In this document: positions 4,334-10,078 of the stretch, one piece after another
Numbering within the stretch: the stretch's first letter is position 1
How the letters are laid out: each line of letters begins with the position of its first letter
Source of the DNA: Spirochaetales bacterium
GTDB lineage: Bacteria; Spirochaetota; Spirochaetia; SZUA-6; DRHE01
Assembly: GCA_023136785.1 (NCBI GenBank)
Contig: JAGLQP010000036.1
Span: 1 to 10,078, forward strand
Direction of reading: 5' to 3'
Length of the DNA: 10,078 bases
Position numbers and translations under genes: made by a program
Notes under the pieces: generated by a model
What the model was told of the DNA's origin: nothing
What the model saw: only the letters and a program-made list of their open reading frames with translations
Database searches by the model: none

Positions 4334-4698
4334 TCGATATCGAGGGTCTTCTTGATCGAGTTGATTACCCGTTCGGGCTGAAAGGGCTTGACGATAAAAT
4401 CCTTGGCGCCCATCTGCAGCGCCTGAACGATCAGGGTTTGCTGTCCCAGGGCGGAACACATAATGATATTCGCACCCGGATCGGTTTTCAGTATCTTTTT
4501 CAGGGCGGTCAATCCATCCATCTTCGGCATGGTGATATCCATGAGCACGACATCGGGGCGCTTGTCTTGAAACAACTCCACCGCCTCCTCGCCGTTGGAG
4601 GCTTCCCCTACAACGCGAAAACCGGCCTTTTCTAAGAGATCTCTAAGCACGAGCTTGATGAATTGGAGATCATCGGCAATGAGGATATTTATGCCCAC
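4330..4698 (-). CDS. Stand-alone CheY-like response regulator receiver protein
   Basis: This 122-residue protein is a single receiver domain with no output domain. It has the full phosphorylation pocket: acidic pair D9/D10, phospho-acceptor D54 within VVLMDITMPKMDG, S82 at the Thr/Ser position, F101 at the switch aromatic (Tyr106 in E. coli CheY) and K104 in VKPF. Such proteins act by phosphorylation-dependent protein binding, classically at the flagellar motor switch, but many serve other pathways. No kinase or chemotaxis gene lies nearby, so its partner is unknown. The start is GTG at 4698, inside the last codons of prfB (10-nt overlap), with an AGGGG about 10 nt upstream. Its stop overlaps the ATG of the PEGA protein, making that protein a candidate functional partner. 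Confidence 0.92.
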   Translation of the reverse strand: MGINILIADDLQFIKLVLRDLLEKAGFRVVGEASNGEEAVELFQDKRPDVVLMDITMPKMDGLTALKKILKTDPGANIIMCSALGQQTLIVQALQMGAKDFIVKPFQPERVINSIKKTLDIE

Positions 4699-5802
4699 TG
4701 TTTCTTGGCCCCTGCGGCGCGCATGAGATAGCCCTCGATGAATTGGTCGATATCACCGTCCATCACAGCCTGGACATTCCCCGCCTCGATCTTGGTTCTG
4801 TGATCCTTCACCATCGAGTACGGATGAAAGACATACGAACGGATCTGACTGCCCCAGGCGATATCTTTCTTCTCGCTCTCCAGTTTTCGTCTCTCCTCGT
4901 CCTGCTGCTCCTTGAAGTGCTCGTAGAGCCGGGAACGGAGCACCTTCATGGCCATGGCCTTGTTCTTATGTTGGCTCCGTTCATTTTGGCACTGTACCAC
5001 GATTCCGGTCGGCAGATGGGTGATCCGTACAGCAGAATCCGTTTTATTCACATGTTGTCCCCCGGCTCCTCCGGCACGATAGGTGTCGATTCGCAGATCC
5101 TCCGTGTTGATCTCCACGTCGATGGTGTCATCGATTACCGGGGTTGTGAAAACCGATGCAAAGGAGGTATGCCTTCTTCGGGAAGCATCGAAGGGGGATA
5201 TGCGGACGAGTCTGTGCACTCCCGTCTCGGCTTTGAATAATCCGAAGGCGTATTCTCCGGTCATCTCCACGGTTACGGACTTGATTCCGCCTTCAGCCTC
5301 CGACATATCGATGATGGCGGTTTTGAAGCCGTGATTCTCGGCCCAACGCGTGTACATGCGCAGAAGCATGCTCACCCAGTCGCAGGCTTCGGTTCCCCCG
5401 GCACCGGAGTGAATGGTCACGAAAGCGGAAAGCGGATCGTTCTCTTCTCCCAGCAGCTGGAGGAGCTTCAGTTGTTCAAATTTTCCCTGCAGCCTCTTCA
5501 CGTCGGCCCTGATCTCTTCCGCCACAGATTCATCGGCCTCTTCCGCGGCCAGCTCGAACAGTTCTTTCACATCCTGGTAACTATTCTTCAGCTCTCGCCA
5601 CGGATCGTAGATACTCTTTAGTCGCTTCAGGGTGCTCATTATGTTCTCTGCGTGCTCACGGTTTTGCCAGAAATCGGCTGCCGCTGTCTGTTGCTCCAAG
5701 GAGTGAATTTTAGAGTTCAGCCCTTCGGGGTCAAAGATGCCTCCAAGATTCTTCGATGTCTTCCTCGAGACGGTCAATTTCAGTCTGTAACTCTTCAATC
5801 AT
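4689..5802 (-). CDS. prfB: Peptide chain release factor 2, made by programmed +1 frameshifting
   Basis: RF2 recognises UGA and UAA stop codons and triggers peptide release on the ribosome. The codon-recognition tripeptide SPF is present in VRISPFDASRRRHTSFASV. The catalytic GGQ loop is present in RAGGAGGQHVNKTDSAVR. The gene is read in two frames. ATG at 5802 opens a 23-codon frame (MIEELQTEIDRLEEDIEESW and RHL) that ends at UGA (5733-5731). Slippage by +1 on CUU continues at GAC into 347 further codons, giving about 370 residues, close to the 365 of E. coli RF2. The start has AAGGAAGG 6 nt upstream. A TTG at 5798 gives an open frame without the shift, but its first 19 codons are not RF2-like. 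The gene lies 18 nt after the Cas2-like gene and overlaps the receiver gene by 10 nt. Confidence 0.97.
5730..5744 (-). promoter_or_regulatory. RF2 autoregulatory +1 frameshift site
   Basis: On the minus strand the site reads GGAGG CAT CTT TGA C. It has a Shine-Dalgarno-like GGAGG exactly 3 nt before the slippery CTT, then the in-frame UGA followed by C. This matches the layout of the E. coli site (AGGGGG TAT CTT TGA C). When RF2 is scarce the UGA is decoded slowly, the CUU-bound tRNA slips +1 and full-length RF2 is made. When RF2 is plentiful translation stops after 23 codons. The frame change is read directly from the sequence; the mechanism is taken from the known family. Confidence 0.96.
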
Positions 5803-5820
5803 TACCAGCCTTCCTTGGTT

Positions 5821-6123
5821 TTAAGAATCGGATCGGGAACCAGCCCCTCTGCTGGTGTTTACCACGGTCTTACGCCATTTCTTCTCTTTCAGAACGGAGA
5901 TGACCAGGGTGTTTTCCATGGGGTACTGATAGAAACGCAAGCAGTCGTAGGAATCGGTCAGACGATCCAGCTCCCTCTTCAGACGAAGCAGTCCCCGCTC
6001 GTTTATCCTTAGAGACTCGTACAGGCCTTCGTGCACCTTCTTGAAACCATATTCCTGAAAGGTTGAATGCACTCGATCCCGATGATTTTCGCTGCCTAGA
6101 TCGCAAGACACCGCTACAAACAT
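5821..6123 (-). CDS. Orphan Cas2-like small protein (ferredoxin-fold), first gene of the prfB-ftsY operon
   Basis: This 100-residue protein resembles Cas2. The predicted layout fits the Cas2/VapD-like ferredoxin fold: strand MFVAVSCDLG with the conserved Asp at residue 8, helix at about 13-26, GF then strand KKVHEGLYESLR, helix at about 41-58, strand CLRFYQYP and a final strand near TLVISVLKEK. Cas2 proteins form dimers that scaffold Cas1 during spacer acquisition, and some are metal-dependent nucleases. No cas1, other cas gene or CRISPR array is in the window, and the gene sits 18 nt upstream of prfB, so a housekeeping or stand-alone role is more likely than CRISPR adaptation. The start is ATG at 6123; the only SD-like GGAG is too far away (about 20 nt), consistent with near-leaderless translation. 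The tail (about 89-100) is polar and Ser/Arg/Gly-rich. The fold assignment is by eye and not certain. Confidence 0.7.
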   Translation of the reverse strand: MFVAVSCDLGSENHRDRVHSTFQEYGFKKVHEGLYESLRINERGLLRLKRELDRLTDSYDCLRFYQYPMENTLVISVLKEKKWRKTVVNTSRGAGSRSDS

Positions 6124-7456: not shown

Positions 7457-9472
7457 CTATCCCTTACGCAAATCTATACTGACTTTCAATTCGTCCTGCT
7501 GTTCCGGTTGCAGGTTGATCTCCCACTGGGATACAAAGCATGAACCCTGGTATAGGGTAGTCCGTTTTTCCCGCTCGTAGCATACGGTCTCCACGGGCAG
7601 GCTCCAGAGAGAAAACGCCCTGTCCGCCCCCAAGCTCAAGCGCACACCGTTCGCCTTGTCATCTATCCACACGCTATTGATCGAATCGAGAGCCGTCGCC
7701 TCGCAGCTCACCCGTTTTTCTTTTTCTCCGATCTGTACCGAGAAATCAGAAAATTTATCTCCCTTGCCTGCCAAGGCCAGATTGAACTCCAGGCCGTACC
7801 AAAGCTCAATAGGAGCGGATCCGCCGTTTATGACCGCTATGGACAACTCGATCCCGTTCTCCTTAAAACGATAGCTCTTTCTCAACGTGACGGGATAGCT
7901 CTTGCGTTTGATTCGGACCTGTCCGTGGCGAAGCATTATCAACTTCCGCTGCTCCCGTTTGAGCTCCTCCAACTCGAAGGGTTGATCGATGAAATCCCCC
8001 ATCTCCTGGTAGCTCATCCTGTCGAACTTCTCGAGGGTCGTGTTCGGAGCAAAGAAGTGATCGATGAATCCTTTGCGCATATACCAGTCACAGCCTTCGT
8101 ATTTGTACCTGTGGTAGCGCTCGGGCCAGCGGGCGATCGTGTCAAGATAGTTCCAACTCTTCGGCAGATAGTCCAGCTCCAGAAGAATAGCCCCCATTCG
8201 GTGGACAAAGGCGTTGAGCACCTTGCCCTGATACAGATACTCGTCATGGCCGTCCATGTCGTAGTCCGTAGCAATGATCGCCGGCATGAACATACCGGCG
8301 TTTCGTGTAATTTTTTCGGCTTCGATGAAGGCTCGATAAGCCGCTTTACGGAGATGGTTCGCATAGGCGCCGCCGTGATGGCCGTGCCAGTACACCGCAC
8401 CGGTCTGGCCTTTCCACAGCTCGTTGAGGGCGGCCTTCTTCTTGTACTTGTCGCCGCGGATCTGATTCACCAGCACATGGGTATACATGAGCCGGGAGTA
8501 CAAGAGGTTGACTTCCGGATATCTTGTCAAGAACTGCCTGAAAAATCCCCTCTGCAGATAGACCACGCTTTCCGCTTTGCGGATCCTTTTAGAAACTTCT
8601 TGACAAATCTTCTGCCGCTTCGGCGATAGCGCACTATTCATGGTTTCCATCGAAGATAGGCAGGGGAAGTACAGTCTCCCTTGGGGTTGCACGGATTCGA
8701 GGTTGTAGCGGGGATTTCTCGGGTGAAGCCATTCCCGATTTTCCTCAAGAAGATCGAAGAAGCGGGGCAGCCAGCCGTTGTTTGTATAGATGGGAGGATT
8801 CGTCTGTTCGTCCTCCAGAGTCTCGCCGGGCAGCAGGATCACGGCGGTCTTCCCTCCGGTTTGACCGGCTGTTCCGTGAAGCTCCAGTATCAGATCCTCG
8901 GGGGTCTTGGCGGGGATCATGCGCTGCAGGGCAAGATGGAGGGGGAGTACGGTGATGGTCTTACCCTGGTCCTCGGTGAGATAGGGCTGGTAGCAGTCCT
9001 GCTCCTCTACGCCCGCGATATGGAAATGATGGTCATCGAGAAAGGTGTATTCGATACCGCTGTTGCTCAAGATTCGCGCCAGGCTCGGTTCCCAGACCCG
9101 TTCGGCGATCCAACTCCCGCGGGGCCGGGTACCGAAGGTGGTTCGAATGAAGGTGCTCATCTTCTCGATCTGCCCCAGCTTGTCGCCGTCGGGAAGAAGG
9201 GCCAGCACCGGCGCGTGATAGCCGCCGCCGAGAAGCTCCACCTGCTTGCGCCGGATCATCTCCTTGAGCAGCATGATGAACTCGGGGTGCTGGGCCTCCA
9301 ACCACTCGAAAAGAGAACCGCAGTAGTGCAGCACCCCGGGGATTCGCGGATACTTATACAGCAGGCTCAAGAACGGTTTGTAGGCCTGTTGATAAACCGC
9401 CTCAAATCGCTCCGGAGGGGTTCCATCGGGTTGATGATTGTACGTGCCAAATAGTAGACTGATCGACCTCAT
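7457..9472 (-). CDS. GH57 family protein, 4-alpha-glucanotransferase/alpha-amylase type, with altered acid/base site
   Basis: This 671-residue protein follows Thermococcus litoralis 4-alpha-glucanotransferase (659 residues) along most of its length, as recalled from memory. The GH57 barrel opens with FGTYNHQPDG (8-17), contains LGGGYHAPVLALLP (81-94), and has WIAERVWEP with nucleophile Glu at 124, then YTFLDDHHF. The central part (about 300-400) has AVYWHGHHGGAYANHLRKAA, and the C-terminal half matches the beta-rich DUF1926-type domain, including MGDFIDQPFE. There is no signal peptide, so it acts in the cytoplasm. GH57 members of this type cleave and transfer alpha-1,4-glucans in glycogen or maltodextrin metabolism. 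The motif HDDGEKFG, which carries the acid/base Asp214 in T. litoralis, is LLPGETLE (213-220) here in an ungapped stretch. Activity is therefore doubtful or uses another acid. The ATG overlaps the RnfB-like stop (ATGA). Confidence 0.88.
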   Translation of the reverse strand: MRSISLLFGTYNHQPDGTPPERFEAVYQQAYKPFLSLLYKYPRIPGVLHYCGSLFEWLEAQHPEFIMLLKEMIRRKQVELLGGGYHAPVLALLPDGDKLGQIEKMSTFIRTTFGTRPRGSWIAERVWEPSLARILSNSGIEYTFLDDHHFHIAGVEEQDCYQPYLTEDQGKTITVLPLHLALQRMIPAKTPEDLILELHGTAGQTGGKTAVILLPGETLEDEQTNPPIYTNNGWLPRFFDLLEENREWLHPRNPRYNLESVQPQGRLYFPCLSSMETMNSALSPKRQKICQEVSKRIRKAESVVYLQRGFFRQFLTRYPEVNLLYSRLMYTHVLVNQIRGDKYKKKAALNELWKGQTGAVYWHGHHGGAYANHLRKAAYRAFIEAEKITRNAGMFMPAIIATDYDMDGHDEYLYQGKVLNAFVHRMGAILLELDYLPKSWNYLDTIARWPERYHRYKYEGCDWYMRKGFIDHFFAPNTTLEKFDRMSYQEMGDFIDQPFELEELKREQRKLIMLRHGQVRIKRKSYPVTLRKSYRFKENGIELSIAVINGGSAPIELWYGLEFNLALAGKGDKFSDFSVQIGEKEKRVSCEATALDSINSVWIDDKANGVRLSLGADRAFSLWSLPVETVCYEREKRTTLYQGSCFVSQWEINLQPEQQDELKVSIDLRKG

Positions 9473-10078
9473 TGTTTGAGATGAACATCATTGCCCGCAA
9501 TGCATTTCGTTGGACAGGCTGTGGCTCCCTCCTGCCTGTCACCTGCAGCCGCGTAGTCGATCCGGGACAGATTGTCCTCGACTTTGTATCCCCCCTCGGG
9601 GGATTTCTTCTCGCAGATCTTGCAGGCTATGCAGCCAACCTTGCAATACTTCCGTACCTGCCCCCCCTTGTCCTTCGAACTGCAGAGGACCAGGTAATCC
9701 GCATCCTGGGGCAGCCACTGCATCACGCCGGTCGGACAGATCTTGACACACTGCCCGCAGGCTATGCAGATCTCCTTGTTCACCCAGACGAGCCCCTCGG
9801 AGTCGTAGTAGATCGCATCCACCGGACACACTCGGATACAGCTGCCCAATTCGAGGCAGCCGTACTTGCAGACCTTGTTGCCGCCGAACAGAGCGTATAG
9901 GGCGGTGCAATCCTCAACACCCGAGTATTCGAAGGCGTACTCGGAGGTTGAAACACCTCCACGGCAATGTACCTGGGGAACCCTCTTGACAGCATGGGTA
10001 TGTTCATACTCCACACCCATGAGCTCTGCTACCTGTTTGGCGACATCCGGGCCTCCGACCGTGCACAGGTCCAGGGCG
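9469..10078 (-). CDS. rnfB: RnfB-type polyferredoxin of an Rnf electron-transport complex (5' end outside window)
   Basis: RnfB is the iron-sulfur subunit that passes electrons into the membrane Rnf complex, which couples ferredoxin:NAD oxidoreduction to an ion gradient. The 202 visible residues (counted from the first full codon at 10077) begin at the end of the Fe-S domain, ALDLCTVGGPDVAKQVAELM, where C5 is the last ligand. Two complete Cys groups follow: C70-x3-C74-x5-C80-x3-C84-P and C104-x2-C107-x2-C110-x3-C114-P. A second ferredoxin unit has C145, C149-x2-C152-x2-C155, then Ser159 instead of Cys, and a last motif with only C188-P left. VLCSSKDKGG and the CKYGCLELGSC motif are characteristic of RnfB. 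The reading frame is open to the right edge, so the real start is outside; the ATG at 10020 is internal. The stop overlaps the GH57 ATG. Other Rnf subunits would be expected upstream. Confidence 0.85.
   Translation of the reverse strand, partial: ALDLCTVGGPDVAKQVAELMGVEYEHTHAVKRVPQVHCRGGVSTSEYAFEYSGVEDCTALYALFGGNKVCKYGCLELGSCIRVCPVDAIYYDSEGLVWVNKEICIACGQCVKICPTGVMQWLPQDADYLVLCSSKDKGGQVRKYCKVGCIACKICEKKSPEGGYKVEDNLSRIDYAAAGDRQEGATACPTKCIAGNDVHLKQ

Follow-up and report, generated by a model that had tools for sequence, protein, structure and literature searches.

We found that the RnfB protein encoded at one end of a spirochaete contig lacks four of the eight ligands of its last ferredoxin unit (FdIII). 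We think it likely, from sequence comparison, that in FdIII a plug of conserved residues has taken the place of one [4Fe-4S] cluster, and that the lost cluster was the distal end of an electron wire that is otherwise continuous. The window (the whole stretch of 10,078 nucleotides that was analysed) is an entire contig, C290, of a draft genome of 2.86 Mb in 745 contigs that is 82% complete. The gene runs into the end of the contig:

9469..10077, minus strand: rnfB, 5'-truncated by the contig end; 202 residues plus the stop codon TGA (9471-9469)

The minus-strand frame is open from this stop codon up to the contig end (10077-9472). Its product matched RnfB of Acetobacterium woodii (9eri_B; E 4.6e-38) and RnfB of Clostridium tetanomorphum (7zc6_B; E 2e-31). 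The top five NCBIfam matches were rnfB_Methano, RnfABCDGE subunit B and three PRK07118 entries ('Fe-S cluster domain-containing protein'); all five scored under the full-length cut-offs, the gene being cut. The nearest protein among the matches listed (P0001, 273 aa) is 87% identical. PF04060 (FdI) had no match in the window's own draft genome, and the N-terminal part of the protein, where RnfB has its membrane helix and FdI, lies outside the window. In a genome of the same genus (G002), the orthologue (L154:7610-8431) is the last rnf gene of a complete rnfCDGEAB operon and contains PF04060 (E 1.2e-12). Judged by these matches, the product is genuinely RnfB, the Rnf subunit that faces ferredoxin, with a predicted ferredoxin:NAD oxidoreductase function.

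RnfC was not found in the window's own draft genome. The two PF02508 matches in that genome, both on contig C266, adjoin an NqrF-like gene (NqrF was named by eye from the translation) and belong to an nqr cluster, because the NqrF-like gene comes next. By eye, contig C266 of the window's genome (G000; locus L235) bears nqrE, the end of nqrD and the nqrF-like gene, so the lineage seems to own both Rnf and Na+-NQR. Spirochaetes are among the phyla with rnf or nqr operons in the relevant part of a 2014 study on the origin of Na+-NQR (PMC4014512).

The 202 residues contain cysteines at positions 5, 38, 57, 70, 74, 80, 84, 104, 107, 110, 114, 132, 145, 149, 152, 155, 188 and 192. We assigned them, and the residues at the lost ligand positions, as follows:

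9907..9966, minus strand: C38 and C57, which supply half of the four ligands of the middle cluster (called B4 in C. tetanomorphum), from the alignment and the structural passages of PMC9588780
9736..9870, minus strand: FdII unit with eight Cys (70, 74, 80, 84, 104, 107, 110, 114); ligands intact, two [4Fe-4S] clusters expected
9643..9684, minus strand: C132 and C145, the remaining two B4 ligands, from the same two sources
9613..9633, minus strand: FdIII motif I with C149 (codon 9631-9633), C152 and C155, three ligands of the retained cluster, from the alignment
9601..9603, minus strand: S159, replacing the CP cysteine of motif I, a ligand of the lost cluster (alignment); S in 113 of 121 members of the clade
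9526..9546, minus strand: A178, G179, D180, R181 and G184, of which A178 (9544-9546), R181 (9535-9537) and G184 (9526-9528) replace three ligands of motif II (alignment)
9514..9516, minus strand: C188, completing the four ligands of the FdIII cluster that is retained (alignment)

The eight cysteines of FdII and the four of B4 are thus all present. In C. tetanomorphum, two ligands of cluster 4 come from the linker between FdII and FdIII and two from further upstream, as described in the cluster section of PMC9588780; by alignment, C132, C145, C38 and C57 correspond to them residue by residue. The last unit aligned to the RnfB chains of 9eri and 7zc6 without a gap, and S159, A178, R181 and G184 each stood opposite Cys in both. 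There is no Cys between 155 and 188; therefore, the usual ligands cannot hold a second FdIII cluster. We considered C192 as a rescue ligand and rejected it. It is conserved in the window's clade (118 of 121) and missing from most other reduced clades (those without the four ligands). Because C192 stands alone, we saw no alternative site for a second cluster. A two-cluster FdIII is usual in clostridial-type RnfB and is not strictly defining. An earlier note, made from the window alone, had proposed a gapless loss of all four ligands of one partner cluster and had assigned ligands by the CxxCxxC plus far CP rule. Its residue numbers (C149, C152, C155 and C188 kept; S159, A178, R181 and G184 substituted) are exact on the minus-strand frame, and alignment with the two solved chains, one of them from Acetobacterium, bears out both the assignment and the homology of the four positions to Cys ligands.

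The loss is common across the class, and common as well in several further families of spirochaetes; the window alone could not show that it is more than an oddity of one protein. We searched 61 genomes (the window's own and 60 relatives; 55 matched) and a phylum-wide sample of 198 genomes (115 matched, 16 of which, from families f44 and f29, are not in the counts). The resulting set had 150 distinct spirochaete sequences from 142 genomes and 58 family codes, with L055, L063 and L154 being duplicates and a fusion (L151) set aside. Of these, 89 lacked all four ligands, 60 were of the full type and one (L046) had three. Two of the full-type sequences are imperfect: L114 stops before the last Cys and L047 is masked in FdII. 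Apart from L015, L047 and L114, which are cut or masked, each of the 150 had the ligands of B4, FdII and FdIII cluster I. In named genomes we took the best 80 of at least 534 confirmed loci, nearly all clostridial by title and one from Chloroflexota; all 80 had the four ligands.

Protein searches gave 343 proteins with repeats counted once (the best 120 of 367, 106, and the best 120 of 631), some identical to the loci. We set aside P0160 and P0171, which are cut, and classified the other 341. Among these matches listed, 206 had none of the four ligands, 130 had all, two had three and three had one; P0249 and P0314 are of the reduced type. In total, 571 sequences from the matches listed, some overlapping, divided into 295 with none, 270 with all four and six partial, a split that exceeds chance. 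The partial six are L046 (C-C-H-C), P0194 and P0222 (both C-C-I-C), and P0021, P0236 and P0251 (one ligand each); they show that the loss falls short of a strict all-or-none pattern. In L046, P0194 and P0222 the middle Cys of motif II is His or Ile and the other three are kept; it is possible that these are intermediates or hold 3Fe-type clusters. Among the matches listed, reduced forms named outside the phylum were P0205 (Sedimentisphaera) and P0243 (Rhodothermaceae). Some genomes have two types of RnfB: G096, G117 and G120 have a reduced and a full one, and G052 has a reduced one and L046.

Where the lost cluster sat in the wire can be approached from its neighbours. According to the structural part of PMC9588780, the clusters of the C. 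tetanomorphum complex form a half circle, the inner stations are spaced 9-10.5 Å, and ferredoxin is proposed to enter at RnfB-6, which lies at the greatest distance from the membrane. C145 stands four residues before C149, just as its FdII counterpart C70 stands four before C74. C70 must ligate the first FdII cluster, because otherwise there would be fewer than eight ligands. A residue at the place of C145 therefore lies near its unit's first cluster. On this reading B4 should be next to the cluster that FdIII retains, and the lost cluster would be distal. Among the clusters of FdII, B4 and FdIII, the lost one was also the sole cluster missing in complete aligned sequences; other cluster gaps were confined to cut proteins (P0160, P0222, P0223 and P0240). 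With a spacing of 9-10.5 Å, a dispensable cluster points to the terminus and not to an inner station. The lost cluster was probably the distal, ferredoxin-facing end (B6/RnfB-6 of C. tetanomorphum). An extra C-terminal ferredoxin module (FdIV) showed a matching pattern. All 27 sampled sequences with FdIV keep the lost-type cluster (four clostridial loci and 23 database proteins, of which P0223 is a fragment), and FdIV occurred in none of the 298 reduced-type sequences among the matches listed; this pattern is weaker as a test because it is confounded by relatedness.

The strand ahead of the first Cys of a ferredoxin runs past both clusters, and the nearness of C145 to C149 does not strictly fix the cluster order. 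The lost cluster might then have been an inner station, leaving either one long slow hop or an FdIII that is purely structural, with electrons entering at B4/FdII. Docking in A. woodii was placed near B1-B2, not residue by residue, in the docking passages of PMC11889175. However, 149 of the 150 spirochaete sequences have every ligand of retained cluster I (L114 stops too early), which would be hard to explain with an electron-inert FdIII, and FdIV occurs solely with an intact second cluster in those sampled. We regard loss of an inner station as unlikely.

Two other accounts would make the missing ligands a matter of damage, and the conservation of the site bears on both. If selection were relaxed, the C-terminal unit would be decaying and the cluster would have been lost as unneeded. 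We compared 121 rows of the clade (the window and P0001-P0120, the best 120 of 367 matches). The residue at position 178 varies (entropy 3.12), and conservation is lower in the former loop (159-187; mean entropy 1.21) than in FdII (0.77). In contrast, S159 (113 rows), G163 (121), L170 (121), G179 (121), R181 (120, with K in one), G or A at 184 (121), C188 and P189 are nearly invariant. In addition, codons 157-193 compared with the same-genus genomes G001 and G002 gave dN of 0.07-0.08 and dS of 1.4-1.5 (dN/dS about 0.05), indicating that purifying selection acts on the new structure. The conserved plug and this ratio disfavour decay, which we consider very improbable. An error of sequencing or assembly might be suspected in a draft genome of this quality (82% complete, 745 contigs) with rnfB at a contig end, yet G001 and G002 show the identical pattern and, like P0001, read SPEGG...GDR at the site. 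Moreover, 119 of 120 homologues (the best 120 of 367) lack all four ligands, the exception being P0021 with one Cys at 159. These genomes and homologues leave an error with practically no probability. Many spirochaete relatives share the loss, so it belongs to the inherited design of the protein and did not arise from a sequencing error or from decay. The suggestion in the earlier note that the pattern looks like selection and not decay is upheld by the sharing of the loss in the clade, the conserved replacing residues and the codon comparison. The note also proposed a change in midpoint potential or in the path of the electrons; this is a plausible idea, which we narrow to the loss of the distal cluster at which electrons would enter.

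If a plug has replaced the distal cluster, then in the window's clade it would consist of S159-P-[ED]-G-G ... G179-[DE]-R181 ... [GA]184. With the FdII pair, B4 and the first FdIII cluster kept, the wire would be one cluster shorter and unbroken, and ferredoxin or another donor would hand electrons straight to the retained FdIII cluster (RnfB-5). Our guess is that R181, with the residues around it, occupies the space left by the cluster. Other families have other residues at the four positions: T-Y-T-S in f44, D-N-P-S/A in f39 and f57, x-x-L-A in most of f37 and f50, and N-F-D-G in f56 and f47. Because the plug residues differ in reduced clades outside the window's, R181 is not a general substitute. 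Just before the first lost Cys, position 158 is basic in a fraction of 0.55 of 271 reduced sequences vs 0.06 of 177 full ones, a figure dominated by the window's own clade; this fits a changed surface.

We compared the window's RnfB to known systems. Like C. tetanomorphum RnfB (7zc6_B), it has an eight-Cys FdII, a B4 cluster built from two linker and two upstream Cys, an FdIII motif I with the far CP Cys, and no FdIV. In C. tetanomorphum, though, FdIII holds both clusters, whereas the second cluster of the window's FdIII has no Cys ligand. With A. woodii RnfB (9eri_B) it has a common core over residues 71-264, but in the A. woodii protein FdIII has its two clusters, and an extra C-terminal module has two more. 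Among bacterial ferredoxins, single-cluster forms that arose from the 2[4Fe-4S] fold by keeping cluster I and losing cluster II offer a chemical precedent. Those are free proteins; in contrast, the loss described here lies within the fixed cluster chain of a membrane complex. A fusion of RnfB to a GltD-like part (L151, in genome G185) also keeps the FdI/FdII core and has an altered distal end, but there the entire FdIII is replaced by an FAD/NAD(P) oxidoreductase. Two such fusions lie in tandem on the minus strand directly after rnfA (G185:C35, 1705-3780 and 2-1591). Each has FdI and FdII followed by the GltD-like part (Pfam was run on the first only, and GltD-like was named by eye). Frames of 684-697 aa in G143, G152 and G167, with matches stopping near FdII, suggest further such fusions.

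That RnfB varies in size or cluster number is stated in passages of PMC9588780, PMC11889175 and PMC12174285 (the last a 2025 review), and eight clusters are counted for A. woodii RnfB in the structural account of PMC11889175. The sections on Rnf in these three papers and in PMC4014512 make no mention of single-cluster loss inside a unit. Neither spirochaetes nor Treponema appear in the main texts of PMC9588780, PMC11889175 and PMC12174285, and our searches of open-licence papers listed none on cluster loss in spirochaete RnfB. In the docking passages of PMC9588780 and PMC11889175, docking of ferredoxin near the outermost clusters is proposed and not demonstrated; current views on the entry point of ferredoxin, and on the clusters that Rnf requires, derive from modelling. 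The 89 of 150 spirochaete sequences amount to a natural deletion of the probable entry station in operons that are apparently intact. Reduced and full RnfB are natural variants for asking what the outermost cluster does in docking, speed and potential matching, and unit-wise loss is a clear example of how the length of a protein wire can change by one cofactor.

We built trees from residues 1-156 only, excluding the columns of the trait itself, with 168 and with 96 rows. For the larger tree we removed seven cut, masked or misread names and then near-copies (>80% identity), which took 205 candidates to 168; its database proteins and Bacillota-type loci are a hand-picked part. For the 96-row trees we took out 15 more names, for the most part long branches, and alternate rows of the main reduced group and of the full group. 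Both row sets needed five changes between reduced and full. In the careful 96-row tree the bootstrap, which had not settled, ranged from five to six changes, with 0 of 200 trees having one change. Well-supported branches force at least three changes in the careful tree and just one or two in the quick trees. Placing all reduced rows in one clade was not rejected by the AU test (p-AU 0.354 and 0.365). A tentative and rather doubtful notion is that the donor-facing end of RnfB is an evolutionary plug-in site. Spirochaetes would have repeatedly dropped the outermost cluster and rebuilt the cavity as a surface where another donor, or one of higher potential, could dock; elsewhere FdIV would have been added or FdIII exchanged for a flavin oxidoreductase (as in L151), and the Arg181 plug would be one such port.

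Three further genes in the window were annotated:

4689-5810, minus strand: prfB (release factor 2), with PCRF and RF-1 domains
5821-6123, minus strand: Cas2-like protein of 100 aa (PF09827, E 5.8e-08)
7457..9472, minus strand: GH57-type gene, whose start codon overlaps the rnfB stop (ATGA, 9472-9469)

No further Cas domain was found among the window proteins scanned with Pfam, and PADLOC gave no lead on the GH57-type gene. A GH57 gene adjoins rnfB in 33 of 34 loci of at least 3500 bases among L002-L038, the exception being L038, and in 0 of 12 full-type loci of that length, where flanks are limited. In prfB there is an in-frame TGA (5733-5731) in the context CTT TGA C, downstream of a GGAGG stretch (the frame was read by eye), which we take to be the usual +1 frameshift site.
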